Assembly: GCF_000758165.1 (NCBI RefSeq)
Contig: NZ_JNUP01000052.1
Coordinates: 1 to 64,000 of the forward strand
DNA: 64,000 bases
Direction: 5' to 3'
Source: Spirochaeta lutea
GTDB lineage: Bacteria > Spirochaetota > Spirochaetia > DSM-27196 > Salinispiraceae
Shown here piece by piece: positions 1 through 60,969 of the stretch (positions are counted from its first letter, which is position 1; every line of letters begins with the position of its first letter). Below the pieces are notes generated by a model. It did no database searches and was not told where the DNA came from. It saw only the letters and a program-made list of their open reading frames with translations. The position numbers and the translations under genes are program-made.

Positions 1-2751
<2,751 letters not shown>

Positions 2752-2923
2752 ATTTTCCGGTGCTGTCAGCTTCTGACAGCCGCGAGGAAGGCATGGCACA
2801 TCGTCAGCACAGGGGCCAAACGGCCCGGATGCGCAGGATTGTTTTAACCAACAGGCCATACCCGGTAAGAAACGGGGATGGGTCTGATGCTAGCTTTCAA
2901 ACTCTAACAATGCAAAGTAATTT

Positions 2924-9450: not shown

Positions 9451-9605
9451 TTCAAACTGTAAATAGCGCAACCCGGGTTACTAACTAGATGCAATTTGAT
9501 TCTGACGCAATCCTAAGTCAGCACGTAAACCGAAATAATCGAATTCGTACATATAACAATAGAAAAAAAATGTAACAGTGTTATAAATCAGGGGAGATTT
9601 TTACT

Positions 9606-9712
9606 AAGTGCGTAAAAGCTTGTAACATTCCCCATCCGCGGCGCTACCCCTGGGGCCCTGAACCCAGGCAGCCCCGCTAAATCCGGTGTAGTGTACAAGC
9701 GTTTGCCCTCCA
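9606..9712 (-). repeat. 105-bp palindromic intergenic element, copy A
   Basis: This is a diverged member of the dispersed family described at 48455. Left end AGTGCGTAAAAGCTTGTAA and right end TACAAGCGTTTGCCC are imperfect complements, and the inner GTGTAGTGTAC and CCGGATTTAG blocks (minus strand) match copy E closely. It fills most of the 9451-9735 gap and overlaps the upstream part of the open frame of the TetR gene, which argues for the downstream GTG start of that gene. No other feature is seen in the gap. Confidence 0.7.
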
Positions 9713-15566: not shown

Positions 15567-15588
15567 CCAAAGAGGGGAAAGGCTTAGA

Positions 15589-15693
15589 TAGTGCGCAAAA
15601 GAATGTAAACTACGCCAGATATAGGGGAACAACCAGAAACCCAACCCAGGGGTGGTGTCCCCCGGGTGAAAACTTACAACCTTTTGCGCACTA
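15589..15693 (+). repeat. 105-bp palindromic intergenic element, copy B
   Basis: This near-complete copy begins TAGTGCGCAAAAGAATGTA and ends TACAACCTTTTGCGCACTA. The inner block ACTACGCCAGATATAGG matches the other plus-oriented copies. Its length, 105 bp including the terminal TA dinucleotides, equals that of copies at 48455 and 60521. It lies 22 bp behind the TPR stop codon. Confidence 0.88.
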
Positions 15694-15857
15694 CCGAAGG
15701 CTTACTGGCTTACTACTAGTGGGGTTTTTGCAGCACTCCGATTTGCAAGAACCAAACACGAGGCCAATACGAGTAAATCACTTCTATGCAAGTAATTACT
15801 TTTCTTCGTTTCCGTGCATGCCAATTGCAAACGACTTTCCCAATTGGCGATAGTAAT

Positions 15858-15975
15858 AATGTATAAAAGGCTGTACTGTTGCCCGCCGGCGCCACTCCCC
15901 ATGATGCCGGCTCTGGGGGAGGTACGCCACTCCCCAGTTGGCCGGAGCTGAGGTGCGGAACTGCCCATTTGGCCG
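15858..15975. repeat. decayed copy C of the 105-bp element (tentative)
   Basis: AATGTATAAAAGGCTGTACTG at 15858 onward resembles the left arm of the family (compare GTGTGTAAAAGGCTG in copy G). A right arm can be guessed only loosely around 15950-15975. It is called tentative because only one arm is clear. Confidence 0.35.
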
Positions 15976-27806: not shown

Positions 27807-28034
27807 AACCCTGGCTTGGAGCGCCAAAGGCTGCATCGTTTTCTGCCGGCGACACTGTCCCTGAATTGGTTCCAGAACCGCACCGCAACATCCTGGGGAG
27901 GATGCAAGCCTTGCACACGTGCGAACCGTACCCTGGGCGGTAGGGACCAGGGTAGCCCCGGAGCGGATCGTACCTATCCGGGCTGGCTGAACATCATTCA
28001 TCAGCGAAACCGAGGTGCCGACGGCCTCCCAGTC

Positions 28035-44048: not shown

Positions 44049-46397
44049 ATGTTCAGCCTGCGACAATACATCACATCACCGGGATACACGGGTATTCGGA
44101 CAATCCGCTGGGGGGTGGGGCTCCTGGTGGCGGTGTGGTTGCTACACCCGCAGATTCTTTCCGGCCAGGCTGTTCAACCAGAATTGTGGATTCCTCGGGA
44201 AATTCTGGCATCCGAGGGGCCGGTCAGAAGCGGGCAGTCCAGTCTGGCCATGCTTCGTCAGAAGCATAGCCAGGACTTATTGGTTTTTTGGGCTATGGAG
44301 CCCAAGGAGTTTTTTACCAAGAAAGCGGCGTTCATGGCATCCCTCCAGGATTACCAACATGCGGTAGACGGCATCCTGAAGAGCCTGGTGTCAATTCAGC
44401 CGGGAACTGCCCCCGGGGGGGGAGACGGTCAGGAAACGCGGATTGGGTTCTGGCAGTGGCTGTACGGGAGGGATGTGCTGCCGGATTGGGTAGCCTCCGC
44501 AGTCGACGCTCAACTGCCCTTGAAGAGCCCTACTGAACCGACAAGTCGGTCGGATACCGCTGGCGCGGGGGAAGGTGAATCGGGAGGGATTCCGGGTACT
44601 CTCAAAGGGTTTCCACCCCGGATTGAAGGGGCTTTCCCCTCGGGGGGTGATGAAGATGCCCAAAACCTGTTCCGTGCGGCGGCAACCTGGGTTAACCACC
44701 TTGGGGAGTCGGGAGATGTGCTGCTCCAGGCTGGATTCGCCATTGCCGAGGGTTTCGCTCTTAGTGCCGGTTCCTCCCGTGGGTCGGGTAGAGAAGGGGC
44801 GGAGGGTGATGGTGTTTCCCAGGAATCCGTCCCGGCGTTATCTTCCCGGGACTTTCAGAATATCATGGTACAGGCGGGACAGGTTATAACCCGGTGGGGG
44901 TATCCCCGGGGTGGAATTCTCCAATGGTACTATGCATTACCGCTCATTAAGGCATTGGAATCACCCTATACTAAAATCCTCCGATGGCATCCATCCTGGA
45001 AGGCTGTGAGGCTGTACCATTGGATGCTAAAGACTGTGGATCTGCTCTCCCAGGAGGCTGAGGCTTCCTTGCGGCACGGGTTATCCCAGGGGCTGCTCGA
45101 CATGGGGGGCGGCTGGTCGGATGCGTGGAATCCCATGATTTCCCTTACCGAGGGAGATTGGGAGCTGCTCAAGCGGGACCAGCAGGATAAGTACAACGGT
45201 CTGGTTCGCCGGGGGGGCAGGATCGGTGCAGAAACCCAGCTGCATTGGCGTGTTATTCCGGGACTGTTTACCCGGTACACCTTGTTATCCCTTTCTGCCC
45301 AGGAGCAGCCTGCCGGGTTTTTACGATCCAGGGATGGTATAATCCTGGAACCTGGACGGAGGCAGCTTCTGCTTGCTGCGGATGAGGAGGGGTACCTTAC
45401 CTGGTCTACCTACATGGAGGAAGTGCTTGGGGAAGCCGGATTGGAGGATGTTCTCGGTCCTGGGGTGGATTCTCGGATTTCCACCCTGCGTTGGCTCAGG
45501 GACCTGGCGGAACAGGGTGGACGGTATCTCGCCGGTAGTGCCGAAGAGCAGTTATCCTTCTTGCTGAAATTTAATAACCTTTGTTTTCCCGGTCAGGAGA
45601 CCCTGTACATCTCCGAGGTTGCCAATACGGCTGCACAAACCGGTATATTCCTGTCTTTGGAGGCGGCGGCGCACCTATCTCGGGAGCTGGGGATTGAGGG
45701 ATTTGCACACCTGGACGCCGCAGACCTGGATGCCGCGGACCCGGACGCCGCGGATCATCCCGGCGGACCCGGTTTGACGGATGACCAAGGCGAGACAGCA
45801 AGCCATGCCCCCCCGGCAAGGGACGGGTGGGGTACCATCCGAGGCGACGAGGCCGGTGATGGGAAGCCGTCTCGGGGGACCAACCCTGGATTCCCGGGAA
45901 GCGGTACGGTTCCGGGGGGTCTCAGGACCGGTCCAACGACGGACCCGGCCGCATCCTCCGACGGGGCAGGTGTTCAGGCTAGGGGTATGACTGAGCCGCG
46001 GTTTGCTGCTCTGTGGGTACAGTTCGGGCCCCTGCTTCTTCAGCGTACCGAGGGGGGCGACCAGATTAACCTCCTGGACCGCTTGCTCATGGGGATACGC
46101 GCCGGGGTCCGGCAGATTTTGTCCGACGCTCGGCCGGAAGATCCCCTGGTTGTTGCACGATTGAGGGTAAGCGACTGGATTTTGGAGCAGGCCAGGTGGT
46201 ATGTCATTTCGCCCCAGCAGGCAGTGACGGCACTCGCCATGATTTGGGAATCTCCCGGGAGCGTTCCGGCGGTTCTTGAGAGCTTGCATCTGGCTACCTG
46301 GGGGGCGGAAGCGGGTTCTTGGCCTCCCGAGGCCTTTGCCCAGGATTTTTGGAGCTGGAAGGCTCTTCGTTCCCGGAAATCGGGAGATGGAATGTGA
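44049..46397 (+). CDS. large exported protein of unknown function
   Basis: The start is ATG 44049 behind GGAAGGT; the upstream ATG at 44034 is possible too. The 782-residue product has an N-terminal signal peptide (hydrophobic core about residues 24-36, likely cut after LSGQA). The body is rich in Trp, Gly and helices and matches no family I know. Low-complexity parts lie at about 155-205 (Ser/Thr/Gly) and 555-650 (Asp/Ala repeats, then Gly/Pro/Thr-rich), which look like flexible linkers between globular regions. Codon third positions are strongly GC. It overlaps or abuts the propeller lipoprotein gene, which suggests that the two products act together in the periplasm or at the surface. Confidence 0.7.
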   Translation: MFSLRQYITSPGYTGIRTIRWGVGLLVAVWLLHPQILSGQAVQPELWIPREILASEGPVRSGQSSLAMLRQKHSQDLLVFWAMEPKEFFTKKAAFMASLQDYQHAVDGILKSLVSIQPGTAPGGGDGQETRIGFWQWLYGRDVLPDWVASAVDAQLPLKSPTEPTSRSDTAGAGEGESGGIPGTLKGFPPRIEGAFPSGGDEDAQNLFRAAATWVNHLGESGDVLLQAGFAIAEGFALSAGSSRGSGREGAEGDGVSQESVPALSSRDFQNIMVQAGQVITRWGYPRGGILQWYYALPLIKALESPYTKILRWHPSWKAVRLYHWMLKTVDLLSQEAEASLRHGLSQGLLDMGGGWSDAWNPMISLTEGDWELLKRDQQDKYNGLVRRGGRIGAETQLHWRVIPGLFTRYTLLSLSAQEQPAGFLRSRDGIILEPGRRQLLLAADEEGYLTWSTYMEEVLGEAGLEDVLGPGVDSRISTLRWLRDLAEQGGRYLAGSAEEQLSFLLKFNNLCFPGQETLYISEVANTAAQTGIFLSLEAAAHLSRELGIEGFAHLDAADLDAADPDAADHPGGPGLTDDQGETASHAPPARDGWGTIRGDEAGDGKPSRGTNPGFPGSGTVPGGLRTGPTTDPAASSDGAGVQARGMTEPRFAALWVQFGPLLLQRTEGGDQINLLDRLLMGIRAGVRQILSDARPEDPLVVARLRVSDWILEQARWYVISPQQAVTALAMIWESPGSVPAVLESLHLATWGAEAGSWPPEAFAQDFWSWKALRSRKSGDGM
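45711..45755 (+). repeat. 15-bp in-frame tandem repeat
   Basis: Three units of CTGGACGCCGCAGAC (with one to three changes) encode LDAAD, LDAAD and PDAAD within the linker of the large exported protein. Confidence 0.85.
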
Positions 46398-46411
46398 TGA
46401 AGGAGGTTTCG

Positions 46412-48370
46412 GTGGGGAAACAGGTCTGGATAGTGTTAGTAGCAATGACCCTGGGGTTATCGGGCTGTGGCGGAGAGCGGGGTGATACCCCCGAGGTTTC
46501 CGATCCCAGCCAGGAGGCTCCCCGGGAAGTGGTATCCGAGGAAGGTGGAATTCCCGAACCTGAGCCCCTGGTATACACCGACTACCCTCCCATCGGGATA
46601 TCCCTATCCTCTCAAAATTCGGGATCATCCGAGGCAACTCGGTACCTCTCCTTTCCCCCGCCGCCGGTTTTACCGGAAATTCTGGATCCTGCCGATGTGT
46701 TGACGACGGAATCCAGTCTGGAATTTCCGGGAGCCGCCGCCCCGATTGAAGACCTATCCTTCGCGGTACCCGCGGGGCCCGGACTTTTGGTGTTATCCGG
46801 ACCGGTGATACGGGGGTATGCGGTATCTGGGGATGAGCTTGCCCAGGGCCTCGCCGAGGGCGGCGGGGACCGGTTTTGGGCCGGATTAAACCTCCGCTGG
46901 ACAGCAGTCCTTGATGGACCGGTATTTCCCGAATTAGTGGTTTCCCGGGGGAAGACACTCTACCTCGGTGTTGCCGGATTCGGTGTCGTGGCCCTAGACA
47001 GTTCAGCGGGTTCGGTCCTCTGGGCCTATGGAAGTTCCGAGGTCGGTCTCTCCGGGTTCATTCTGCTCGATGGGATTATCTACATCCGGGAGGGCACCGA
47101 CTTGGTAGGAATATCCGCAGCCCGGGGCCGGGAGGTGCTGCGTAGTCCGGGGCTTCCCGAGGGAGGCGGCCGGATGACCCTGTGGGATGAGCGGATTCTC
47201 TCCCTGGAGGGGGAGGATGGAATTCGTATTCTGGCGCTCTCCCGGGGGTATTCGGCCGATGGTGTGTTGGAGTCGGTGAAATTGTCTCCCCTGAAGCTCG
47301 GACCCGTCCAGGCTCTCTGGCAGCTGGAGGGTAGGGGAATTCTTGCAGCGGTTAGCAAGGATCAGGATCTGACCATGTACCTGCTGCACCCCCTCCCGGA
47401 GCCGTCCCCAGGGGCAGATTCGTCTACCGGGGGAGATTCGTCTACCGGGGCAGATTCGTCTACCGGGGCAGATTCGTCTACCGGGCCGGCCCAAGGAAGT
47501 ACCAACCGGACACCCCGGGCCGAGGTGTTGTGGCAGAAGAGTATCGCCCCGGAGCCGGGGTTGCAGGTGGTTGCCTTTGCCCATATAGCGGCTTCCCGAC
47601 CCCGGGAGAATACCCCCCGTGAGTATTCACCACGGAGCAGTACGGTCTGGCCCGGATTGGTTCTGGGTTTTTCTCAGGGTGATTCTACTGCCGGGGAGGA
47701 CAGCGGGGTGGTAGTTCTGCACAGTATGGCCGGAGCGTCCCTAGCCGAATTCCCCGGAGCAACCCTCGTTGAAGATTTGATTGCCTCACCCGACGGGCTG
47801 CTGGGTCTGCAGGATTCACGCACCTTGGTGCGCCTTGTCCTACCCTCGGAAAACTTGGGGGTCTCCGCACGTCTCACCACCGAGCCCTTGCAGAATGAAG
47901 TAACGGCCCCTGCTCAGGTGTTTGGAACCCAGGGCCTGGGAATCTCCCAAAAAACGGCCCTGGCTGTTTTGCCCTTGCTCGCCGCCCCTTCCCCAAATCT
48001 GGGTACGGCAGACCGGGGAACCGCCCCTAGGGCGGATCATATTTTCGGATTGCCGGAGGATGGGATCGCGGAGGGGATCCGCTACGATTTTCCTGTTGCT
48101 GATCTGCCGGTGACTCGGCCGATAAGCATTTCCACTCCCGGTGTGTATCGGTTTGAATTGCCCGCCCATAACCAGGCCCCACTGCGTATTCTCATTGCCG
48201 AGGAGGACGGAGCAGTGCAAGCCGACAATCTTAACAAGGTGTCCCTGGACGACCGGCTGCAGATTTCAGCAAGCCCGGACCGGCCCCTCACCCTTACCCT
48301 GGAATGGAGCGGCAGCGCGGAGCGTCAGGGCTATGCGGTGGGATCACTCCAGATGCGGCGCATCCGGTAG
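46412..48370 (+). CDS. PQQ-like beta-propeller lipoprotein
   Basis: GTG 46412 is preferred because AAGGAGG (46400-46406) precedes it by 5 bp; the ATG at 46397, overlapping the previous stop, would add five residues. The 652-residue product has a signal peptide with lipobox LSGC and a long Pro/Ser/Glu-rich linker (about 25-110). Propeller blades follow: LVLSGPVIRGYAVSG, LYLGVAGFGVVALDSSAGSV then LWAYG, IIYIREGTDLVGISAARG and VVVLHSMAGA. A C-terminal sheet domain (about 540-650) follows. A four-fold repeat (GADSST type) interrupts the propeller near residue 335-358. No enzyme motif is seen. It pairs with the large exported protein encoded just upstream. Confidence 0.75.
   Translation: MGKQVWIVLVAMTLGLSGCGGERGDTPEVSDPSQEAPREVVSEEGGIPEPEPLVYTDYPPIGISLSSQNSGSSEATRYLSFPPPPVLPEILDPADVLTTESSLEFPGAAAPIEDLSFAVPAGPGLLVLSGPVIRGYAVSGDELAQGLAEGGGDRFWAGLNLRWTAVLDGPVFPELVVSRGKTLYLGVAGFGVVALDSSAGSVLWAYGSSEVGLSGFILLDGIIYIREGTDLVGISAARGREVLRSPGLPEGGGRMTLWDERILSLEGEDGIRILALSRGYSADGVLESVKLSPLKLGPVQALWQLEGRGILAAVSKDQDLTMYLLHPLPEPSPGADSSTGGDSSTGADSSTGADSSTGPAQGSTNRTPRAEVLWQKSIAPEPGLQVVAFAHIAASRPRENTPREYSPRSSTVWPGLVLGFSQGDSTAGEDSGVVVLHSMAGASLAEFPGATLVEDLIASPDGLLGLQDSRTLVRLVLPSENLGVSARLTTEPLQNEVTAPAQVFGTQGLGISQKTALAVLPLLAAPSPNLGTADRGTAPRADHIFGLPEDGIAEGIRYDFPVADLPVTRPISISTPGVYRFELPAHNQAPLRILIAEEDGAVQADNLNKVSLDDRLQISASPDRPLTLTLEWSGSAERQGYAVGSLQMRRIR
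47414..47485 (+). repeat. 18-bp in-frame tandem repeat
   Basis: Four consecutive units of GCAGATTCGTCTACCGGG, nearly identical, encode ADSSTG or GDSSTG. The near-perfect copies suggest recent expansion. Confidence 0.93.
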
Positions 48371-48454
48371 TCATCTGTGGATGGTTCATTTAAAACGCTG
48401 GTTTGTACGGACCCTGGGCGGAGTCTCTCAAAGCCAATCACTGAAATGATGTAG

Positions 48455-48559
48455 TAGTGCGCAAAAGGTTGTACACTACACCAGGTATAGTGGCCTATTC
48501 CGGGGACCAACCCGGGGATAGTGTCGCCAGGGTGAAAAGTTACAACCTTTTGCGCACTA
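48455..48559 (+). repeat. 105-bp palindromic intergenic element, copy D (type copy)
   Basis: This is the cleanest member of the family. It begins TAGTGCGCAAAAGGTTGTA and ends with the exact 19-bp reverse complement TACAACCTTTTGCGCACTA. Inside, ACACTACACCAGGTATAG and a CCGGGGACCAACCCGGGG hairpin top make most of the element self-complementary. The terminal TA on each side could be a duplicated TA target, leaving a 101-bp core, as in mariner/IS630-type MITEs. It carries no gene. It lies 84 bp behind the propeller lipoprotein stop. Confidence 0.92.
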
Positions 48560-48572
48560 AAAAATGATTTGA

Positions 48573-48677
48573 TAGTGCATAAAAGGTTGTAAACTACCCC
48601 GGATAGAGCAGGACTGCCTGGGCTTAGGCACCAGGGACAGCGCCGCCGCCGTGCAGGGGTTTAATCCCATGGGCACA
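48573..48677 (+). repeat. 105-bp element, copy E (right end eroded)
   Basis: The left end TAGTGCATAAAAGGTTGTA is well kept and follows copy D by 13 bp. The inner part GGATAGAGCAGGACTGCCTG and CCAGGGACAGCGCCGC matches copy A (minus strand) better than copy D, so at least two subfamilies exist. The right terminal repeat is only loosely recognisable near 48660-48680. The whole 48371-48686 gap is taken up by copies D and E. Confidence 0.75.
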
Positions 48678-48686
48678 TTACCGGGG

Positions 48687-49877
48687 TTACCCCTCCTCAC
48701 TTTCTCCAGAAAGGGCAGGACCCGCTTCTCTGGCCGCTTCAGTGTATTCCTTCTCAGCTTCTTGGAGCAGGTCGGAGGTCTTGTCCAGCTGGGCCTGTTT
48801 TTCTGTAATCTGCCGGGCCAGGCGCTCCTCTTCGCTCTGTAATTGGGTAATTCGCTTTTTCAGTTCCTGAGCCTTAATGGCACTGCGGTGCCTGGCGATT
48901 TCTTGGTGGAGGGATGTCATGGACTGCTCTACCGTCAGCAGCTGATTCACAAACCGGTCAACCTGGCTGGCGGATTTTTTTCCCTGCTTCTGTTTGGCCG
49001 GAAGTGCCTCGAAGTACTCCGCTCCGGCGGTCTGAAGACTCTGACTGCTCTCATTCTGGAGGCGTTCCAGATCATCCTCAATAATCGAGATGAGCCTGTC
49101 CGGGGAAGAACTGCCGTACTTTGCCTTTAGATCGTTTAAAAATGCCTGGATTACCCTCCGGCGGGACTCAAGTTCGTCCTTGGAGGAGGAAAGTTCCTCC
49201 CGCTGGGCTTGAATAGTCAGGTAGGGTTGATGTGCGGCCTGAAAGGTTTTGCTTGAAGCCCGGTCAGGAAAATCGGTAGCGACTAACCCTGCGCCTAATT
49301 CCTTTAGCTCGGAGTGCAATTTCCGCTCGGCGCTCCCCCGTTTAACCTGGTCGGCCAGGGCAAGCCCCTTATTGATGACATTTTGAATCGGGCTTTTCCC
49401 ACGGTTTGCCAGTTCTTTTTTTTCAATATGATTGCTGAGCTCATAGAAGCGTTCTTGAGCCTGTAGAGCAGCAGCAAAAAGGTTTTGATACTCCCTAAAC
49501 CGTTCCGGACCGGCCGTATAGACCTCCAGGGCGCGCTGTCCGATCTCAAAAAATAACCCGTCCTCCTGTCGTTCCAGTTCCTTCCGGGTATCAGCATTCC
49601 GTTTCAGCTCCTGGCCTATAGCCTTATCCTGCTCCAGGGAATGGCGCAGTTCATTCAGGGTTTCAGAGGTTTCTTGGATCTGCCCGGTAATCTGCCTGGC
49701 CTTAGAAATTGCTTCAGGAATGGCTTCTCTTCGTTCTTCCGGAAGGGATTCTAACGCCTCTTCGAGGGAATCTGTTTCGAGGAGAAGCAGCCCGATTTTT
49801 TGTACGGTCTCTACCCTGTTTTTTTCTAATTCGTCTATCTGCTGCTGAAAACGCAGGATCATGTCTTTATGGTTCAT
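48687..49877 (-). CDS. coiled-coil protein of unknown function
   Basis: The 396-residue protein is almost wholly alpha-helical with heptad patterns over residues about 5-110, 195-260 and 300-385, rich in Glu, Gln, Lys and Leu. It has no signal peptide, membrane segment or enzyme motif. Its composition resembles cytoplasmic structural or scaffold proteins. The ATG is one base behind the stop of the ABC ATPase gene, so translation is probably coupled. I do not recognise a family. It may organise or tether the ATPase, but this is only suggested by position. Confidence 0.7.
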   Translation of the reverse strand: MNHKDMILRFQQQIDELEKNRVETVQKIGLLLLETDSLEEALESLPEERREAIPEAISKARQITGQIQETSETLNELRHSLEQDKAIGQELKRNADTRKELERQEDGLFFEIGQRALEVYTAGPERFREYQNLFAAALQAQERFYELSNHIEKKELANRGKSPIQNVINKGLALADQVKRGSAERKLHSELKELGAGLVATDFPDRASSKTFQAAHQPYLTIQAQREELSSSKDELESRRRVIQAFLNDLKAKYGSSSPDRLISIIEDDLERLQNESSQSLQTAGAEYFEALPAKQKQGKKSASQVDRFVNQLLTVEQSMTSLHQEIARHRSAIKAQELKKRITQLQSEEERLARQITEKQAQLDKTSDLLQEAEKEYTEAAREAGPALSGESEEG

Positions 49878-49878
49878 G

Positions 49879-50610
49879 TTAGTATTTTAATACTTTTGCA
49901 AGAAAATTGGAAACATCCTCAGTGGCTGCAGAGGTAAACAATTGATCCGGTGTTCCCTGTTCTACAATCCCGCCCTGATCAACAAAGAGGATGTGTTGAG
50001 CTACATGACGGGCGAATCCCATTTCATGGGTAACCATGATCAGCTGCATTCCCGATTCCCGGAGCTCTTCGATTAAGTCCAGAACCTCCGCGGTAAACTC
50101 TGGATCCAGTGCGCTGGTAGGTTCATCCAACAGCAGGAATTCCGGATTAATGGCCACTGCCCGGGAGATAGCGATACGCTGTTTCTGACCTCCAGAAAGC
50201 TGAGCCGGCTTTTTATAACCATGTTCCAGAAGCTGAAAGCGTTTTAATAGGGTTTCCGCAATTCCCTGGGCCTCCTCCCGGTTGTGACCATGAACCTTCT
50301 GCAGGGGCAGGGTGATATTCTCCATAGCGGTAAGGTGGGGAAACAGGTTGTACGCCTGAAAGACCATTCCCACCCGTTTTCGGTAGTTTCTAAGATGTTC
50401 TTCCTTATATATGAGTTCATGGTTGTTTACATGGATTGTTCCGCTATCCGGCCGTTCGAGCCCCGCCAAAATACGGAGTAAGGTTGTTTTTCCGCCTCCG
50501 GAAGGCCCGATAATAACCAGGGACTGTAGATCCTGAAGATCAAGGGTCACGGAATCCAAAACGGTGTGGTCCCCGAAGGACTTGGTAAGGTTGTGTATGT
50601 GCAGATCCAT
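49879..50610 (-). CDS. ABC transporter ATPase, polar amino-acid (GlnQ-like) type, without a permease
   Basis: The start is ATG 50610 (MDLHIHNLTKSF); the frame extends to 50688 but that part overlaps the upstream gene. The 243-residue ATPase has Walker A GPSGGGKTTLL, Q-loop AYNLFPHLTAMENI, signature LSGGQKQRIAI, Walker B FLLLDEPTSALD and the H-loop VTHEMGFA. The length and PHLTAMENI/THEMGFARHVA pattern are those of the amino-acid importer ATPases. No permease gene is adjacent; instead the neighbours are an exported protein and a coiled-coil protein. A 14-bp palindrome CTTCTGTACAGAAG (50636-50649) lies in the 41-bp gap before it. Confidence 0.93.
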   Translation of the reverse strand: MDLHIHNLTKSFGDHTVLDSVTLDLQDLQSLVIIGPSGGGKTTLLRILAGLERPDSGTIHVNNHELIYKEEHLRNYRKRVGMVFQAYNLFPHLTAMENITLPLQKVHGHNREEAQGIAETLLKRFQLLEHGYKKPAQLSGGQKQRIAISRAVAINPEFLLLDEPTSALDPEFTAEVLDLIEELRESGMQLIMVTHEMGFARHVAQHILFVDQGGIVEQGTPDQLFTSAATEDVSNFLAKVLKY

Positions 50611-50651
50611 GGTGTTAAGGTAGTAAACAACCCCGCTTCTGTACAGAAGTT

Positions 50652-51458
50652 TTAATAATAGGGCTCGAAGATATCCGGGCTTTCCCACTCGATACCCTCC
50701 GCCTGCTCCTGACCGAAGAGGATTGGAAGCAGGCGTGCGCCGAAGCTCCTGGCGTTTCCGCTGGAAAGCAGGCGGGTAATCCTTCTATTGAGGGTTTCTC
50801 GGAGAACGGGGTTTGCCTCGGGCAGTCGAAAGGCGTAGAACTGCTGACTGAATCCCCCGGTCTGATTTACCAGACCATGGATGCGTAATGCCCCCGGGAG
50901 GGCATCTGGTTGGCGTCGGCGGAGGTCCTGGATGAACGATGCGAATCTCAGATCCATATCCAACAGACTGGGCGCCTTCCCCCGGGAAAGGGCCTGCAAC
51001 CCTTGGGCTCGCGTAGAAACCAACAGAAATTGGGAAGTACTGTTTAATTCCCCTAAGGCTGAGGGAAAGAAATCCCATAGGTCAGCGGGGACAATGAAGT
51101 CGTAATCGTAGGATGGGGCCGCTGGAGGTTCCGGGAGATCAATAGCGATGAGGGTGGTACGGATAAAGGGCTGGGTCTGATCTGCCGGATAGGCGGCGCC
51201 GATGACACGGCTGGAATCCGAGGGATCAGGGCTCCATACGGGGGTAAGCTGTGATAGGACCTCATTACCCAGGAGTGGCTCGTTCAGGGGTGTCTCCGAG
51301 GGGATTCCCGCCAGGGCCTCCAGGGTCTGCTGACCGAGCCACTGGGGTGCACTGATTTCTGACGGAACCAGAGATTCCGCCGGTATTTTTCCTATTGGAA
51401 TGGCTAATCCGAAAAGGGCAACGACTAGGGTCAGGGGGCGGGACTGGAACTGTTTCAT
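50652..51458 (-). CDS. exported protein of unknown function
   Basis: The 268-residue protein begins with a signal peptide (hydrophobic stretch about residues 8-22, likely cut near PAES). The mature part has no lipobox Cys. Segments YDYDFIVPADLWDFFPSALG and SQFLLVSTRAQGLQALSRG resemble the alternate strand-helix pattern of periplasmic binding or SGNH-like folds, but I cannot place it in a family. It is the first gene of a minus-strand unit with the ABC ATPase and coiled-coil genes. It could be a receptor for the ATPase's transporter. It diverges from the sugar transporter operon. Confidence 0.62.
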   Translation of the reverse strand: MKQFQSRPLTLVVALFGLAIPIGKIPAESLVPSEISAPQWLGQQTLEALAGIPSETPLNEPLLGNEVLSQLTPVWSPDPSDSSRVIGAAYPADQTQPFIRTTLIAIDLPEPPAAPSYDYDFIVPADLWDFFPSALGELNSTSQFLLVSTRAQGLQALSRGKAPSLLDMDLRFASFIQDLRRRQPDALPGALRIHGLVNQTGGFSQQFYAFRLPEANPVLRETLNRRITRLLSSGNARSFGARLLPILFGQEQAEGIEWESPDIFEPYY

Positions 51459-51571
51459 AGGGTCTCAGCCTAATCCGGGAGGTTCTTTTCTGTCTATAGG
51501 GATTACACGGTTGCAGATACCGGCTCTGATGGGCGACAGAAAGAAAAACCAAAAAAATGAAAACTTTTCCT

Positions 51572-51600
51572 TGACGCATTTCAAGAGTGGATTTAGAGTG
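51572..51600 (+). promoter_or_regulatory. promoter of the sugar ABC transporter operon
   Basis: TTGACG (51572-51577) and TAGAGT (51595-51600) are exactly 17 bp apart. The expected start lies in the operator just downstream. The message would have a leader of about 75 bases before the ATG at 51684, with AGGGGG at 51672-51677. Confidence 0.75.
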
Positions 51601-51605
51601 TTCAT

Positions 51606-51632
51606 ACAAACCGGTTTACTAAACCGGTTTGT
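51606..51632 (+). promoter_or_regulatory. double LacI-family operator
   Basis: AAACCGGTTT occurs twice (51608-51617 and 51621-51630) and the two halves form one larger 27-bp palindrome centred on 51619, complete except for the centre base. The central CG and A/T flanks are those of LacI/GalR-family sites. It begins 6 bp behind the -10 box, so a bound repressor would block initiation. The LacI-type gene at 55189 is the obvious candidate to bind it. Confidence 0.85.
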
Positions 51633-51683
51633 AAAATTCTTATCTCACCCTCCATAGCCGGGAGGGTAATTAGGGGGTATTCC

Positions 51684-52919
51684 ATGAAAAGGCTTTTATC
51701 AATCATGCTCATCATGGCTTTTGCGATCCTTCCTCTGAGCGTATTTGCCAGCGGAGAAGGCGAGCAGGGCGGAGCAGCTGCCTCAGGCAAGGTTTCCTTT
51801 GCACTGTGGACTCAGGAAGGGGAATCTGAGGGAGCATTCGCCTTCGTTCAGAAGCTTGCCAATGATTTTATGGATGCAAATCCAAACGTAATCATTGAGG
51901 TTGTTCAGAAGGACACCGAGGCGCTTCGGGAAGATTTCCAGACCGCTTCATTGGCTGGTAGCGCTCCCGAGCTGCTATGGACTGTCAGCGACCACGCCGG
52001 TCCCTTCCTGGCTGCAAATCTGATCCAGCCTGTAGATGCTATGTTCAATGCGAACAACTTCATTGAGACTGTTATCGTAAACAACAACGCGTACGCAGTG
52101 CCCATTTCTGCGGGTAACCACCTGATGCTGCTCTACAACAAGTCTCTGGTTCCCAATGCACCGAAGACCACCGATGAACTCATCAGTGTTGCTCAGGGTC
52201 TTACCACCGGGGACATGTACGGTCTTGTATACAATGCCACCGAACCCTTCTGGCTCGTACCTTGGCTGGGCGGTTTTGACGGTAAGGTATTCGCTGCGGA
52301 CGGTGTAACTCCTACCCTGAACACCAAGGCAATGCGTGACACCCTTCAGTTCCTTGCGGACCTTGAGTTCGAACACGGCGTGGTACCTGCCGAGTCTGAC
52401 TACGGCACCATGGACACCCTGTTCAAGGAAGGCAAGGCTGCTATGCTGATCAACGGCGACTGGTCACTGGGTGACTATCAGGGAATCCTGGGTGATGACC
52501 TTGGCGTTGCTAAGATCCCCACCGTTTCAGCTACTGGTTCTGATCCTGCTCCCTACACCTCTGGTAAATACTTCATGGTTGCCGAAGGGGTAAGCGGTGC
52601 AAAACTTGATGCAGTGAAGTCCTTCATCCAGTTCGCTACCAGCGAAGCTGCCATGAAAGAAATGGTTGAAACCCTGGTTCGTCTTCCTGCACGGCTGACC
52701 ACCCTCCAGGATCCTCTGGTAACCTCAGATCCGATCCTTAAGGGTTCTGCTGAGCAGCTGGCCACCGGTACTCCCCAGCCCACCAACGTAGAAATGCGTG
52801 CTGTATGGGATGCCATGAAGCCCGAGATGAACGCTGTACTGGCCGGTACAAAGGATGCTGCCGCTGCTGCTGCTGCTATGCAGGCTGCTGCCGAGGCAAC
52901 CATTGCTACCATGCAATAA
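51684..52919 (+). CDS. sugar ABC transporter substrate-binding protein
   Basis: The 411-residue protein has a signal peptide (about 1-22; SVFASG, no lipobox Cys) and the layout of MalE-type family 1 solute-binding proteins: KVSFALWTQEGESE, NPNVIIEVVQKD, GSAPELLWTVSDH, MLLYNKSLV, FKEGKAAMLINGDWSL and KSFIQFATSEAAMKEM. It delivers an oligosaccharide, such as a maltodextrin, to the two membrane subunits encoded downstream. The sugar cannot be named from sequence. The C-terminus is Ala-rich (AAAAAAAMQAAAEAT). A strong terminator follows it, which fits its need for far more copies than the permeases. No ATPase is encoded in the operon; a shared MsmK-like ATPase elsewhere is likely. Confidence 0.93.
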   Translation: MKRLLSIMLIMAFAILPLSVFASGEGEQGGAAASGKVSFALWTQEGESEGAFAFVQKLANDFMDANPNVIIEVVQKDTEALREDFQTASLAGSAPELLWTVSDHAGPFLAANLIQPVDAMFNANNFIETVIVNNNAYAVPISAGNHLMLLYNKSLVPNAPKTTDELISVAQGLTTGDMYGLVYNATEPFWLVPWLGGFDGKVFAADGVTPTLNTKAMRDTLQFLADLEFEHGVVPAESDYGTMDTLFKEGKAAMLINGDWSLGDYQGILGDDLGVAKIPTVSATGSDPAPYTSGKYFMVAEGVSGAKLDAVKSFIQFATSEAAMKEMVETLVRLPARLTTLQDPLVTSDPILKGSAEQLATGTPQPTNVEMRAVWDAMKPEMNAVLAGTKDAAAAAAAMQAAAEATIATMQ

Positions 52920-52939
52920 ACTCTGTACATGAGTACAGG

Positions 52940-52981
52940 CTGATCTCCGGCGGAATGATCCGCCGGGATCAGTTTTTTTTT
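52940..52981 (+). terminator. attenuating terminator between binding protein and permease genes
   Basis: A GC-rich stem (CTGATC plus CCGGCGG paired to CCGCCGG plus GATCAG, one bulged T) with a six-base loop is followed by nine T residues. It lies 20 bp behind the binding-protein stop codon and 13 bp before the permease start, so partial read-through would set the ratio of products. Confidence 0.88.
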
Positions 52982-52993
52982 GGGGAGGTTCCG

Positions 52994-54058
52994 ATGAGTA
53001 GTGTAGTATTACGGAGTTTGGGAGACGTGCTGCCGACCCTTGGGGTCATTGTTCTGGTGGTGGTTGCCCTTGAGCTTCTTTTGTATCTTGTATTAAAGCG
53101 GATGCTCAACTATAAGTATTCCCTGGCCTACATGCTGGTAATGCCTGCAGCCCTGGGGTTACTTGTGTTGGTGGTGTATCCGATCGTTTATAATATTGTA
53201 ATCGCCTTCAGTGATACCAACCTGTTCGCCGGACGCTTTCCAACCCGGCCGGGTTCGGTGAGCTACGGGGTCGGCGAGTTCATTGATAATATTAAGCTGG
53301 TGTTCACCGCACCGGTCTTGAAGCAGGAGTATTTCTTCCCTGTATTCGGTCGAACTATGTTGTGGACCTTCTTACAGGTGGCTGTCCACGTGACCCTGGG
53401 GATGATGGTGGCCATGCTGTTGAATAGGCCTATGAAGCTTCGGGGATTTTACCGAACGGTGATTTTGTTCCCTTGGGCGGTTCCCCAGGTTATTGCCGTG
53501 CTTGCCTGGAGAGGTGAGTTTAATTTTGACTATGGATATTTCAACGTTATTTTAACACAGATGGGCTTTGATAAGATTCCGTGGATGTCTGATCCATTCT
53601 GGAACTACCTGGCTGTTAACATGACCAACTGGTGGTTGGGGGTTCCCTTCATGTCGGTTGTTCTGTTGGGCGGCCTGCAGTCCATTGATCCCTCCTACTA
53701 TGAGGCAGCGGAGATTGACGGCGGCGGGAAATGGGTCCAGTTTAAAGAAATCACCCTGCCCCTCATGAGGCCGGTACTGACACCTGCCGTGGTACTGGGG
53801 GTCATCTGGACCTTTAATCAGTTTAACGTGCCGTTCTTTATCAACCAGCAGGAACTGGAGACCAGCGATATTCTGGTTACCGCCCTGTACCGGGCAGCCT
53901 TTGAATATAACCGGTATGGATTTGCGTCAGCATTCGCGATCATCATCTTCCTGATTCTGATGGCCTTTACCCTGATATATATGCGGTTGAGCAACTTCCA
54001 GGTGGATGTAGGGCAGAGTAAGAAACGCCTTGCCCAGGCCAAAACGGTAGGAGAATAG
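52994..54058 (+). CDS. sugar ABC transporter permease (MalF type)
   Basis: The start is ATG 52994, with GGGGAGG in front; the longer frame upstream runs into the binding-protein gene. The 354-residue membrane protein has an N-terminal helix followed by about seven more. It carries the permease EAA-loop motif YYEAAEIDGGGKWVQFKEIT-L, which contacts the ATPase. It has the longer N-terminus and inserted periplasmic loop of the MalF kind. The 3' end is 2 bp from the next permease gene. Confidence 0.93.
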   Translation: MSSVVLRSLGDVLPTLGVIVLVVVALELLLYLVLKRMLNYKYSLAYMLVMPAALGLLVLVVYPIVYNIVIAFSDTNLFAGRFPTRPGSVSYGVGEFIDNIKLVFTAPVLKQEYFFPVFGRTMLWTFLQVAVHVTLGMMVAMLLNRPMKLRGFYRTVILFPWAVPQVIAVLAWRGEFNFDYGYFNVILTQMGFDKIPWMSDPFWNYLAVNMTNWWLGVPFMSVVLLGGLQSIDPSYYEAAEIDGGGKWVQFKEITLPLMRPVLTPAVVLGVIWTFNQFNVPFFINQQELETSDILVTALYRAAFEYNRYGFASAFAIIIFLILMAFTLIYMRLSNFQVDVGQSKKRLAQAKTVGE

Positions 54059-54060
54059 CC

Positions 54061-54987
54061 ATGAGTAACATGAATCAACAGGTTTCCATCCACCTTCCCA
54101 CCAGGATGGATCTCATTAAAAAGCATGGATTTTTCAGGTGGTATTTTCATACAGCCAGGGGCGACAGTCCCTTCAAACGTACCCTGGTGCATATCGCCCT
54201 GATCGTCCTTTCGTTTATTGCGGCGTATCCGGTGATGCGGATCTTGACGGTTTCAATTCGACCCGGGGACCGGTTACTATCCACCTCCTTGGCGTTAATC
54301 CCGGCTGATGCAACCTGGGATAGCTACTACAAGGTACTCTTTGAGCGGGATTTCTTTATATGGTTATGGAACTCCCTATTAATCACAGCATCCACTTCCT
54401 TCCTGGGCGTGTTTATCGCGAGTACGGCAGCCTACAGCTTCAGCCGGTGGAACTTTCCCGGAAGAACCTCCGGGTTGATCTTTCTGCTGGCTACCCAAAT
54501 GATTCCTGCGACGATGCTCATGGTGCCGATATACATTATCTCAAGCATGTTGGGGATTCTTAACACCTGGAAGGGATTGGTGGTGGCCTATTCGGTGACC
54601 TCGGTGCCCTTTAGTATATGGATACTTAAGGGATATTACGATACCATACCCGTCGAGTTGGAACAGAGCGCCATGGTTGACGGTGCAACGCGAATGCAGG
54701 CTTTTTTCCGAATCATTCTCCCTTTGAGTGCACCGGCCCTGGCTATTGCCTTCCTGTTCAACTTTACCCAGGCCTGGAACGATTACCTTCTTGCAAGAAT
54801 CATGCTTCAGAAGCCTGAGCTTTATACCTGGCCTCTGGGGTTACAGAGTATGCAGCGACAGTTCCAGACCCAGTGGGGTGAGTTTTCCGCCGGTGCGTTA
54901 ATGGTATCGGTGCCGGTAATGATACTCTTTTTAGTATCGTCCAAGTGGTTGATATCGGGTCTGACCCTGGGTTCGGTTAAGGGATAG
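54061..54987 (+). CDS. sugar ABC transporter permease (MalG type)
   Basis: The 308-residue membrane protein has six transmembrane helices. The EAA motif is LEQSAMVDGATRMQAFFRII (about residues 198-217). The C-terminal GLTLGSVKG is typical of MalG-like subunits. It pairs with the MalF-type protein encoded immediately upstream. It is the last transporter gene; about 200 bp follow before the regulator gene, holding a possible hairpin and the motif noted at 55092. Confidence 0.94.
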   Translation: MSNMNQQVSIHLPTRMDLIKKHGFFRWYFHTARGDSPFKRTLVHIALIVLSFIAAYPVMRILTVSIRPGDRLLSTSLALIPADATWDSYYKVLFERDFFIWLWNSLLITASTSFLGVFIASTAAYSFSRWNFPGRTSGLIFLLATQMIPATMLMVPIYIISSMLGILNTWKGLVVAYSVTSVPFSIWILKGYYDTIPVELEQSAMVDGATRMQAFFRIILPLSAPALAIAFLFNFTQAWNDYLLARIMLQKPELYTWPLGLQSMQRQFQTQWGEFSAGALMVSVPVMILFLVSSKWLISGLTLGSVKG

Positions 54988-55091
54988 GATCGGACTTATG
55001 GAGAAGTCGGGTTCGGGCGGGGTTTTTGGGTTTGATTCCCCATGGCTCCGCCCGGTTGCCGAGAGCCGGATATGACCGGTTTGCTGGGTAG

Positions 55092-55124
55092 AACGCCTCT
55101 CGTAAAGGCGTTAGAATCACCCTA
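55092..55124 (+). other. hairpin and shared motif before the LacI gene
   Basis: AACGCCT and AGGCGTT (55092-55098, 55106-55112) can pair around seven bases. The right arm is part of GGCGTTAGAATCACCCTA (55107-55124), which differs by one base from 33908-33925. Its role is not known. Confidence 0.35.
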
Positions 55125-55188
55125 AATACGTAGGAGACAGCAACGCCGGCACCCCATGGTCCGGCACGGTAAGAAGCGGTAGGTTAGT

Positions 55189-56214
55189 ATGCGGGTTACA
55201 ATAAACGATATTGCTAAGGCATCCGGATTTTCGAAGACGTCCGTATCCTTTGCCTTTAATGATCCTACACGGATTTCCAAGGACACCCGTGATAAGATCA
55301 TGAAGATTGCCGAGGAGCTGGGGTATGTTCCCGATCCGGTCGCCCGTAACCTATCCCTGAAGAAGGTGGGAACCATTGGGTTTCTTGTACCCCAGACCAT
55401 TCCCGAGGCTTTTGCGAACCCCTACATGTCAAGTATTCTCCTGGGAATCGGCGATGCCTGTCAGAAGCATGCCTATTCACTTACCGTAGTGCCGCCCCTG
55501 AGGGACTCGATCTTTGACGGGGTGCGCAGCGCGGCGGTGGACGGGTTTATAACCATGGGGCTCCAGCCGGAGATGAAGGTTGTGCAGCTCATTCGCCAAC
55601 GTCATATGCCTTTTGTGACCATAGACGGCCGTCCCAGCGAAGAGGGCCCCAGCATCAATGTGAATGATGAGACGGCGGCCTACGAGCAGATGGAGTATGT
55701 TCTGGCCAAGGGCCACCGGCGAATTGCGGTGTTGAGCTTGGAGATACCCGAGGGTTCTGAAGAGGGAATTTTCGGGGGTGTCTCTGAGTGGCGGTTAAAC
55801 GGCTATAAGGGTGCGCTGGGTGCTGTGGGCTTGTCCATGGAGGATTTACCCATCCGCTATTGCAGTACTACCTTCGAGAGCGGTGCGGCTGCGGTGCGGG
55901 AGATTCTGGCGACCGGCTACATGCCTACGGTGTTTGTATGTATGTCCGACGTTATCGCCATCGGTGCCAAGCGGGAGCTGGAGTCCCGGGGGTTTCGGAT
56001 CCCCGGGGATATTTCGATTATCGGCTTTGACGATATCCCCGAGGCTCAGATGGTCGTTCCGAATCTTACCACGGTTCATCAGCCCGGATTCAAAAAGGGC
56101 AGAAAGGCCGGAGAGATGCTTTTTAGCCTGATTGCCGGGGAATCTACCGATTACCGGGTGGAATACCGGTGCCGTTTGGAAATTCGTGATACCCTTGCCG
56201 AGCCCAAATCCTGA
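55189..56214 (+). CDS. LacI-family transcriptional regulator
   Basis: The 341-residue protein has the N-terminal LacI helix-turn-helix (TINDIAKASGFSKTSVSFAF, residues 4-23) and hinge (ARNLSLKKVGTIGF). A periplasmic-binding-protein-like effector domain follows, with ILLGIGDA, VFVCMSDVIAIGAKREL and ISIIGFDDIPEAQMVVPNLTTV. It most probably controls the sugar operon just upstream on the same strand through the AAACCGGTTT operator. A half site GACCGGTTTG lies near 55076, so weak autoregulation is possible. The ligand would be the transported sugar or a derivative. Confidence 0.93.
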   Translation: MRVTINDIAKASGFSKTSVSFAFNDPTRISKDTRDKIMKIAEELGYVPDPVARNLSLKKVGTIGFLVPQTIPEAFANPYMSSILLGIGDACQKHAYSLTVVPPLRDSIFDGVRSAAVDGFITMGLQPEMKVVQLIRQRHMPFVTIDGRPSEEGPSINVNDETAAYEQMEYVLAKGHRRIAVLSLEIPEGSEEGIFGGVSEWRLNGYKGALGAVGLSMEDLPIRYCSTTFESGAAAVREILATGYMPTVFVCMSDVIAIGAKRELESRGFRIPGDISIIGFDDIPEAQMVVPNLTTVHQPGFKKGRKAGEMLFSLIAGESTDYRVEYRCRLEIRDTLAEPKS

Positions 56215-56249
56215 GGTATTGGCGAAACCCCATCCCTCCAGTATAGTAG

Positions 56250-58025
56250 ATGCATATGAAATTTATTGAGTTACCATTGCACTCCCAGCTGCAAGAGAGT
56301 ATTGCAGCGGCAGAATTTACCGATTGCACCCCCGTACAGGAGCTAACCATTCAGGCCGTGCTGCAGGGCAGGGACGTAACCGTCCAGTCCCAGACGGGTA
56401 CGGGAAAGACCGCAGCCTTTTTAATTCCCCTATTTGAACGTTTCTTAAAAGAGGATGAAGAAGGGAGGGCCGGATCAGGCCCCCGGGCGTTAATTGTGGC
56501 CCCCACTCGTGAGCTGGCCGAACAGATCAAGGATGAAGCAGTAATGTTAGGAAGTACCCTCCCGTTTAAGGCGGGGGCATTCTACGGCGGCGTGGGGTAT
56601 AAGGGCCAGGAGCAGATGATTGCAGCCGGGCTGGATATCATCATCGGCACCCCGGGGCGGCTGCTTGACTTCGAACGCTCAAAGAAGCTTGATTTTTCAC
56701 AGATCAAGTATCTTGTGGTTGATGAGGCGGACAGACTGTTTGATATGGGCTTTTATCCGGATTTGGTGTCGATTCTCCGGCGTATGCCTTCCAGGAAAAA
56801 CAGGCGGACCCTGCTCTTCAGCGCTACTATGAATACCCGGGTTATGAACATTGCTTGGGAGCATATGAACGAACCCCAGGATATTCAGATAGAACCGGAA
56901 CACATCACCGTGGAGAAAATCGATCAGAGCCTCTACCATGTAAGCCGGGAGGAAAAATTTCCCCTTCTTTTAGGGCTGCTCCGGAGTATTGAGCCCAAAA
57001 ATGCCCTCATTTTTACAAATACCAAGCGTGGTGCCGAAGAGGTTTCCAAGCGTTTGAAAATAAATGGGTATACCTGTGAATTTCTCATGGGTGATCTAGC
57101 CCAAAATAAGCGGTTGAAGATCATCGGTTCTCTAAAGCGTGGAGAGCTTCAGTTTCTGGTTGCCACCGATGTAGCGGCCCGGGGGCTCCATGTAGATGAT
57201 TTGGAACTTGTGGTGAACTATGATATTCCCGAAGATCCGGAGAACTATGTTCACCGGATCGGCCGGACCGCGAGGGCCGGAAAAACCGGCAGGGCGATCA
57301 GTTTTGCGGATGAGCGGTTTGTGTACGGACTTCCTGCCATAGAACAGCTCACTTCCATGAAAATTCCTGTTGCCCCCGTGGATGAATCCCTTTTCGGAGA
57401 GGATAAGAGCAAGGGCATGCGGATCCGCTATGACCGCGACGATAGCATACGGGCTCGGGGCGGGAAACCCCGGTCCTCTGAACGGGGAGGATCTCGGCGT
57501 CGGGATTCTCGGCCGGGTAAACCGGCTGCCACCCGTCCGGAGGGGATCGAACGAAAACCGAAAAATCCCCAGCGCGGCCCGAAACCGAGTCAGCCGAAGC
57601 ATAAACGCAGGGGACCGGCTCCTAGTGCCAATGTCGGGAGCCCCTCAAAGAGTGCGAGCCCCGAAGAGCGGCTGGCCTACTACCAGCAAAAATACGGAGA
57701 GGATTTTACCCTAAAATCAGGCCCCGCCGCCTCTCGGGTAGGAACCTCCGGAAAACCCGGTAAACCGGGGAAGGCAGCCAAGGGACCGAAGGCCGGCAAG
57801 GCAACACGGAGGGGAAAACCCGGCAAGACCCAGCAAAAACCGGCCACTGCCCCAAAAGGACAGAAGCCCGACACCCCCAAGGCAGCTGCAAAGACCAGGC
57901 CTGGGAGGGTAAAACAGAATCCCTCTCGGTCTGATCAAAATACCCCTAGAAATAAGGAATCCCAATCTGGTAAGGATACCAAGGGGTTTGTTGGATTTAT
58001 CAAGGGGCTGTTTGGCAAATCTTGA
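56250..58025 (+). CDS. DEAD-box RNA helicase with long basic tail
   Basis: The 591-residue protein starts at ATG 56250 (or 56256). The helicase core (about 1-370) has the Q motif region CTPVQELTIQAVL, motif I SQTGTGKTAAF, PTRELAEQ, motif II VDEADRLF, SAT, and motif VI HRIGRTARAG. The C-terminal 200 residues are disordered, very rich in Lys, Arg, Pro, Gly and Ser, with repeats such as GKPGK and GPKAGK, and should bind RNA non-specifically. The core resembles RhlE/CsdA types. It probably helps ribosome assembly or mRNA decay; rpsD follows 79 bp downstream with its own promoter over the stop codon. Confidence 0.94.
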   Translation: MHMKFIELPLHSQLQESIAAAEFTDCTPVQELTIQAVLQGRDVTVQSQTGTGKTAAFLIPLFERFLKEDEEGRAGSGPRALIVAPTRELAEQIKDEAVMLGSTLPFKAGAFYGGVGYKGQEQMIAAGLDIIIGTPGRLLDFERSKKLDFSQIKYLVVDEADRLFDMGFYPDLVSILRRMPSRKNRRTLLFSATMNTRVMNIAWEHMNEPQDIQIEPEHITVEKIDQSLYHVSREEKFPLLLGLLRSIEPKNALIFTNTKRGAEEVSKRLKINGYTCEFLMGDLAQNKRLKIIGSLKRGELQFLVATDVAARGLHVDDLELVVNYDIPEDPENYVHRIGRTARAGKTGRAISFADERFVYGLPAIEQLTSMKIPVAPVDESLFGEDKSKGMRIRYDRDDSIRARGGKPRSSERGGSRRRDSRPGKPAATRPEGIERKPKNPQRGPKPSQPKHKRRGPAPSANVGSPSKSASPEERLAYYQQKYGEDFTLKSGPAASRVGTSGKPGKPGKAAKGPKAGKATRRGKPGKTQQKPATAPKGQKPDTPKAAAKTRPGRVKQNPSRSDQNTPRNKESQSGKDTKGFVGFIKGLFGKS

Positions 58026-58050
58026 CATCCCCTAGGGATTCGTATAGCCT
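58022..58050 (+). promoter_or_regulatory. promoter of rpsD
   Basis: A perfect TTGACA (58022-58027) overlaps the helicase stop codon. It is followed by TATAGC at 15 bp or TAGCCT at 17 bp. TCCCCTAGGGA, an imperfect palindrome, occupies the spacer. Confidence 0.55.
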
Positions 58051-58067
58051 TTCAGACCACTACATAA

Positions 58068-58086
58068 GGTACCGAGTTCTGGTACC
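58068..58086 (+). promoter_or_regulatory. leader hairpin before rpsD
   Basis: GGTACC (58068-58073) and GGTACC (58081-58086), each self-complementary, can form a 6-bp stem around seven bases, ending 2 bp before the AAGGAG ribosome-binding site. S4 is a known translational autoregulator in other bacteria, so this leader structure is a candidate binding site; that is inference. Confidence 0.35.
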
Positions 58087-58104
58087 ATAAGGAGTTTCTT
58101 TTTT

Positions 58105-58719: not shown

Positions 58720-58772
58720 TTCTTACCGCTTCAATCCCGGGGAGTTCTGTTCCTGGGATTCTTGTTTCAAAG

Positions 58773-58807
58773 AGCCTTCCAACCTTCGGGTCGGGAGGCT
58801 TTTTTTG
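58773..58807 (+). terminator. terminator behind rpsD
   Basis: A 12-bp stem with a TTCG tetraloop (AGCCTTCCAACC / GGTCGGGAGGCT, one mismatch) is followed by seven T residues. Confidence 0.93.
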
Positions 58808-58827
58808 CACGTGCCTAAAGGACTGTA

Positions 58828-58932
58828 TAGTTCGCAAAAGGTTGAACCATTGCGCCTCGGTGACACCATCCATGGGCGGAATTATCGATTGCTCCGCCTT
58901 ATCTGGTGTAGTTTCCAACCTTTCGCCTTCGA
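58828..58932 (-). repeat. 105-bp palindromic intergenic element, copy F
   Basis: On the plus strand it begins TAGTTCGCAAAAGGTTGAA. Read on the minus strand from the other end, GAAAGGTTGGAAACTACACC and AGATAAGG match the left half of copies B and D. The end near 58932 is diverged. The rest of the 58720-59161 gap (beyond 58932) shows no gene. Confidence 0.8.
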
Positions 58933-59161
58933 TGGACGGTATCGGCTACTATCCCATGGATCCCGAGCCAATTGTAGCAGCCACTTCTGTAATAGACTCT
59001 TTATTTTGCTCACTTACAAGAAAATAGACGTTAGCGGGTATATTCCGGTGGAAAGATCGCCGGGGAGGAATTACTATAGGTACAGACCCCGAAACACCTA
59101 TCCCAGTCCTGGCGCCGTACCAATGGTCCAAGCCTGGGATAATACGATGTGAGGAGATACC

Positions 59162-60511: not shown

Positions 60512-60520
60512 ATCTATGCG

Positions 60521-60625
60521 TAGTGTGTAAAAGGCTGAAACTATTCAGCCTGGCACCACCATAGCTGGACTAGTTTCCTGTCTATGCTACTATCTCCGGC
60601 GAAGTGTACAACCTTTCGCGCAATA
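60521..60625 (-). repeat. 105-bp palindromic intergenic element, copy G
   Basis: The element begins TAGTGTGTAAAAGGCTGAA and ends TACAACCTTTCGCGCAATA, exactly 105 bp like copies B and D. It lies 9 bp behind the stop codon of the preceding gene. Read on the minus strand its ACACTTCGCCGGAGATAG block matches the left half of the plus-oriented copies. Confidence 0.85.
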
Positions 60626-60969
60626 CCAATTCTATGCCGGATGCCCAGGAAGGGATTACCGGACTCCTGTGGGGCCCCGGCCTGTGGTTTCCCAGAGTGA
60701 CGCACCCTGGAAACGAAGCAATCACGGTGTGGCGGTCCTGAACCACCGTGGAGGCATTGCCCTGAGGGCTATCGGGAACGAGGAACCTCCATGGGTTCGC
60801 GGGTGGTGAATCTAGGCTTGGTAAATCGGGATAGGGGGGTGCTGTCTGGTACGTTCTCCTGGGCGAAACGTCGTTTCATACCCCAGCTATAGCAGCGTCA
60901 TCCTAGTAACAACCCAGGGATAGCCGTACCGGCACGAATGGTTGGTATCCCGTGGACTCCATAGGAGGA
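60626..60969. other. gene-free stretch
   Basis: No gene is seen in these 344 bp. CACGGTG and CACCGTG (near 60731-60758) can form a hairpin. GC content is even and there is no codon-like periodicity that I can see; a structured RNA cannot be excluded. Confidence 0.45.

Follow-up and report, generated by a model that had tools for sequence, protein, structure and literature searches.

A short, palindromic, non-coding element is present in two adjoining copies at positions 48,455 to 48,677 of the analysed 64,000-nt stretch of the Spirochaeta lutea genome (the window). In total, the window holds six copies of this MITE and one extra, decayed copy (27817-27920) (Table 1). A sequence-only reading of the window had named positions 9606, 15589, 48455, 48573, 58828 and 60521, and a MITE copy is found at each, with three of them (15589, 48455 and 60521) measuring exactly 105 bp from TAG to CTA, in agreement with the stated number; the decayed copy was absent from its list. 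A doubtful seventh position, 15858, gives only half a match, and a weak one (12.5 bits over model positions 60-108), and is not a full copy. The copy at 48455 is so placed that its right duplication, AAATGATTT, may be the older 48573 copy's own target. An ORF at 46319-48370 contains an 18-bp in-frame minisatellite (CGTCTACCGGGGCAGATT, window positions 47403-47492), which encodes a short repeat.

Table 1. MITE copies and associated target-site duplications in the 64,000-nt window.
Feature	Position	Strand	Evidence
Older MITE copy, duplication past recognition	9604..9712	-	50.4 bits
MITE copy, duplications AAAGGCTTA (15578-15586) / GAAGGCTTA (15696-15704)	15587..15695	+	96 bits; duplication 8/9
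Possible half-copy remnant	15856..15904	-	12.5 bits, model positions 60-108
Decayed MITE copy	27817..27920	-	32.9 bits (cmsearch); 34.9 bits (second model search)
9-bp target-site duplication to the left of the 48455 copy, AAATGATGT	48444..48452	.	8/9 vs right duplication
MITE copy, best-preserved in the window, 105 bp TAGTGCGCAAAAGGTTGTA...TACAACCTTTTGCGCACTA, tips AG/AA	48453..48561	+	cmsearch 121.9 bits; perfect 19-bp terminal inverted repeats
9-bp target-site duplication to the right of the 48455 copy, AAATGATTT, abutting the tip of the older 48573 copy	48562..48570	.	
Older decayed MITE copy adjoining the 48455 copy, right end decayed	48571..48680	+	cmsearch 26.2 bits; nhmmer 38.2 bits
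Older MITE copy, duplication past recognition	58826..58931	-	61.2 bits
MITE copy, duplications AAATCTATG (60510-60518) / AATTCTATG (60628-60636)	60519..60627	-	62.2 bits; duplication 8/9

The anatomy of the element was determined from 84 full copies, taken from 1.07 Mb of contigs that were picked for end matches and in which copy density is therefore inflated. Nearly all of these copies are 103-106 bp in length, and the element is non-coding with 19-bp terminal inverted repeats. Left and right flanks were compared at all offset pairs and match on a single diagonal, with positions 3-11 outside TAG corresponding to positions 3-11 outside CTA, exactly 9 bp. Identity at these positions is 0.62-0.73, compared with 0.24-0.56 in shuffled pairings, and positions 1, 2, 12 and 13 are at background. 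The flanks match at seven or more of the nine positions in 46 of the 84 copies, where approximately 1.5 would be expected, and the duplication is perfect in 10 copies, 8/9 in 18 and 7/9 in 18 (expected 0.1, 0.4 and 1.1, respectively). Moreover, the duplication is better in better-preserved copies (Spearman rho 0.40, 84 copies), and the duplicated 9-mer prefers the symmetric pattern WAAnnnTTW (A/T-A-A-n-n-n-T-T-A/T). Since the flanks match at positions 3-11 only, the unit measures 109 bp and its target-site duplications 9 bp, and a TA duplication is excluded. The unit consists of two variable bases, TAGTGCGCAAAAGGTTGTA, a palindromic non-coding core of approximately 67 bp, TACAACCTTTTGCGCACTA and two further variable bases, and the fixed-length duplication that characterises a prokaryotic MITE is present, at exactly 9 bp and in fixed register.

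The element had been proposed to be a mariner/IS630-type MITE, similar to RUP, with duplication of a TA target. All well-preserved copies do start and end with TA, and the statement that each ends in TA is literally true; however, this TA forms the end of the inverted repeat itself, and the flanking direct repeats of 9 bp are each separated from it by 2 bp. The two bases beside TAG and CTA match between flanks at background level only, and vary between copies (TG, GA, TA, CT, CG and others); they are biased towards pyrimidine-purine, and the left and right tips of the MITE copies are uncorrelated. No relative in the same genus was available for empty-site comparison among the genomes searched, and a search for paralogous empty sites within the genome returned only a trivial self-match, and nested copies were used instead. 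In one nested insertion (L122:6836), a copy with a 9/9 duplication, TACCCCTTT, lies inside an older MITE copy, and when 109+9 bp are excised, the older copy becomes continuous again and the model alignment crosses the junction without a gap. A scan of excision lengths at this site gave scores of 85-86 at 9-10 removed flank bases and 82-83 at some others, whereas the one-TA excision scored 79, no better than background; the peak is shallow because the older copy is decayed. Flank statistics and the nested insertion both favour 9 bp over the single-TA duplication that had been put forward, and a mariner/IS630 origin is highly improbable.

The prediction of a very high copy number in the genome was borne out by a model search of the 3.53-Mb genome, which identified at least 147 copies. 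This is a lower bound and the true number is higher, as 150 of the 1616 candidates from a first pass were scored with the covariance model, which was built from 74 copies. The 19-nt end TAGTGCGCAAAAGGTTGTA occurs 149+159 = 308 times at two or fewer mismatches (3.53 Mb, 69 contigs), compared with 0 for the reversed control, and copy number is therefore far above chance. Many copies are old, since identity between nearest neighbours has a median of 90% and a maximum of 98%. An unusual cluster is present on contig C37 (L046, 14 kb), where four MITE copies lie approximately 1 kb apart at 1850-5077, with a half copy at 9314. A search for the 105-bp element in 41 relatives, and for the 19-nt end in 393 spirochaete genomes, gave one stray match outside the Spirochaeta lutea genome; this lone end match (1 mismatch) among the 392 other Spirochaetota genomes is taken as chance. 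No description of the family was found in the open literature.

Copies are concentrated between genes, with 64 of the 84 lying outside ORFs of 100 aa or more, compared with 9% of random placements. The gaps used are tandem (33), convergent (22) and divergent (9), such that divergent (promoter) gaps are under-used. The placement of copies mostly behind stop codons, as given by the sequence-only reading, is borne out only mildly. Intergenic siting is also what would be seen for a functional intergenic RNA or terminator family, in which a hairpin under selection, and not transposition, would account for the repeats. Single copies do fold strongly (the 48455 copy at -59.8 kcal/mol, z -9.5), and changes on both sides of the named hairpin are slightly more frequent than after shuffling (65 cells vs 48.8). 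However, RNAalifold gave no consensus hairpin, with a negligible covariation energy (-0.27), no Rfam family matches the MITE, and copies within 47500-61000 lack a terminator-like T tract. Copies occur in both orientations and in all intergenic types, the palindrome is expected for a MITE, and neither 9-bp target duplications nor ends common to an IS (see below) fit such a family. RNA structure was rejected as the reason for conservation, covariation being weak, and an RNA or terminator family is very unlikely, although the hairpin may have a secondary effect on neighbouring mRNAs.

Evidence for a parent element comes from the ends of contigs in the same assembly. Eleven right and 11 left IS ends were found at contig ends, with termini of the TAGTGCGCAAAA[GC]CCTGTAACTTTTT-type that match the MITE termini, as expected if approximately 11 near-identical IS copies broke the assembly. 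On the right, a reading frame ends (...WNMKWRNPGVDFGTYVPKYISA, then stop) ahead of AAAAAAGTTACAGGCTTTTGCGCACTA, in which the shared contig-end sequence stops, and on the left, other contigs end in TAGTGCGCAAAACCCTGTAACTTTTTACAAACCTTCCCCC.... The right end on C46 and the left end on C68 share TAACGATTT at 9/9, with 2-nt tips as in the MITE, and a second right/left pair (C21/C42) has an 8/9 duplication match. In addition, contig C63 carries, near 209.4 kb, a chimera in which the left half of a MITE is fused to the IS 3' end. The MITE therefore has both its ends and its duplication length in common with a co-resident element (11+11 contig ends, one 9/9 pair and the chimera); the shared ends extend over approximately 26 bp and the interiors are unrelated. 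The last 86 aa of the parent ORF can be read in this genome, the IS interior being absent from the draft assembly (a collapsed repeat). Contigs C22, C38 and C60 end in a different common sequence, TAATTTACAGAAAGAATTGTACACCAAC, and a repeat other than the MITE parent therefore also breaks the assembly. A second multi-copy element, with an IS256-like (mutator-type) transposase, may be present at the right ends of L050, L051 and L067 and at approximately 1-1300 of L111.

Because the IS interior is unassembled here, the autonomy of the co-resident IS is argued from relatives in G002, a complete genome (3.8 Mb) of the same taxonomic family but another genus, which encodes full-length transposase homologues of 380 and 405 aa. 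The 405-aa homologue sits in an intact element of 1395-1397 bp, with ends (AGTGCACCAAAGCTTGTAAAAA) homologous to the Spirochaeta lutea MITE ends. This genome has its own MITEs, of 131 and 142 bp, with ends near-identical to those of its IS, and the duplications of IS and MITE are 9 bp in the same register (9/9 at L166 and L169; 8/9 at L180 and L186). Two genera therefore carry independent IS and MITE pairs. A second related IS in G002, encoding the 380-aa transposase (L142, L150 and L153), has different ends, CGCCCCAAACAATGTGGAAA, and no evident duplication in three copies.

In an alignment of four homologues, the zinc-ribbon cysteines are invariant, as are the acids D151, D242 and either D285 or E298, which are candidates for catalysis. 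A DDE catalytic mechanism for the parent is putative; a single-sequence fold of the catalytic part had a pLDDT of 34.5, too low to be of use. The parent homologues gave no Pfam match at cut-off and only N-terminal, sub-cut-off likeness to ISL3 and IS1 in NCBIfam, and an IS630-type model was absent among the matches to either. The sequence-only reading had suggested looking for an IS630-type transposase with inverted repeats matching the MITE ends; a co-resident IS with such ends does exist, but its zinc-ribbon transposase is unrelated to IS630 models, which, with the 9-bp duplication outside two variable bases, removes the mariner/IS630/RUP affiliation. As the transposase is invisible to Pfam and below NCBIfam cut-offs, its genes are likely to be annotated as hypothetical. 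With a transposase profile, family members were found in 23 of the 393 Spirochaetota genomes sampled, spanning 19 genera. No parent homologues were found in viral contigs and plasmids, and a genome-contig search found a single relative, which is interrupted, in a MAG from Great Salt Lake. This contig (L188 179-2963), placed in a Bacteroidetes bin, carries a transposase closely related to the 380-aa one of G002 and split by an IS3-like element, and is probably mis-binned or recently transferred. The chances appear evenly balanced that the parent represents an undescribed IS family, widespread in spirochaetes, of approximately 1.4 kb, with one zinc-ribbon transposase of approximately 380-405 aa, 9-bp duplications and conserved subterminal ends of AGTGC type with an unfixed outermost pair of bases; such a family would have repeatedly given rise to MITE families of high copy number, independently in each host lineage and one in each.

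The short palindromes, in hundreds of copies, also invite comparison with REP/BIME-like elements moved by a RAYT (an HUH tyrosine transposase), or with attC-like integron sites. The 9-bp duplications imply a staggered, double-strand mode of insertion and not HUH single-strand transfer, and the transposase of the co-resident element with matching ends is a zinc-ribbon protein whose invariant acids form a DDE-like pattern. The commonest tip together with TAG reads TGTAG, which resembles the known GTAG-tagged REPs (PMC3733652). For an integron site, a cassette array would be needed and none is present; the copies lie dispersed in either orientation, and every one has a separate duplication. Either origin is barely credible.

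The element at this locus belongs to a MITE family that is new, high in copy number and marked by 9-bp duplications, has a likely co-resident parent, and is not of mariner/IS630 type. In particular, it appears, with a probability of roughly nine in ten, to be a 109-bp non-autonomous MITE most likely mobilised in trans by the transposase of the co-resident IS with the same ends (approximately 11 copies). The MITE interpretation of the sequence-only reading is supported by a short, non-coding element with inverted repeats, a fixed 9-bp duplication and at least 147 copies. Mobility, trans-mobilisation and any current activity are inferred. The transposase would bind the approximately 26-bp ends common to IS and MITE and would cut out or copy the MITE, insertion would follow, staggered by 9 bp, at sites with AT ends (WAAnnnTTW), and gap repair of the stagger would leave the 9-bp direct repeats. 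The intergenic clustering is attributed to selection against gene disruption. This would account for a repeat that is very abundant in a free-living spirochaete lineage and identify its probable engine, and the parallel IS and MITE pairs in two genera offer a direct test of MITE birth and amplification. The case also illustrates how a tempting terminal TA can mislead on transposon class.

RUP and other mariner/IS630-type MITEs are likewise intergenic, approximately 100 bp in length and bounded by inverted repeats, but have a TA duplication and an IS630 parent, as opposed to the 9-bp duplication and non-IS630 parent found here. ISL3 elements make 8-bp duplications. The parent homologues resemble ISL3 in their N-terminal zinc-ribbon/HTH part (NF033550; best 37.3 bits, E 1.6e-9), but the catalytic part is unmatched, the score is far below the 180-bit cut-off and the duplication is 9 bp, not 8, in two genera, and membership of ISL3 was rejected. 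Duplications of IS1 are 8-9 bp, and the zinc-ribbon N-terminus of the homologues has some likeness to IS1 and IS1595 (NF033558, NF050000; 24.4 bits for the IS1 model). Membership of these families was also rejected, as the homologues fall below the 100-bit (IS1) and 28-bit cut-offs and have a single ORF of approximately 400 aa. The closest known case is MITEAba12 of Acinetobacter, a non-coding element of 113 bp with 16-bp ends and 9-bp duplications, whose ends are shared with the co-resident, approximately 1-kb ISAba12 (PMC6382973). The ends of MITEAba12 (GGCTTTGTTGCACAAA) are unrelated, its transposase is another one and it is AT-rich, and its 90 copies are spread over many genomes (PMC6382973), compared with at least 147 in the one Spirochaeta lutea genome. 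Nevertheless, both are MITEs with 9-bp duplications, ends common to a co-resident IS and an interior unlike that IS, and MITEAba12 works in the way proposed here for the Spirochaeta lutea MITE.
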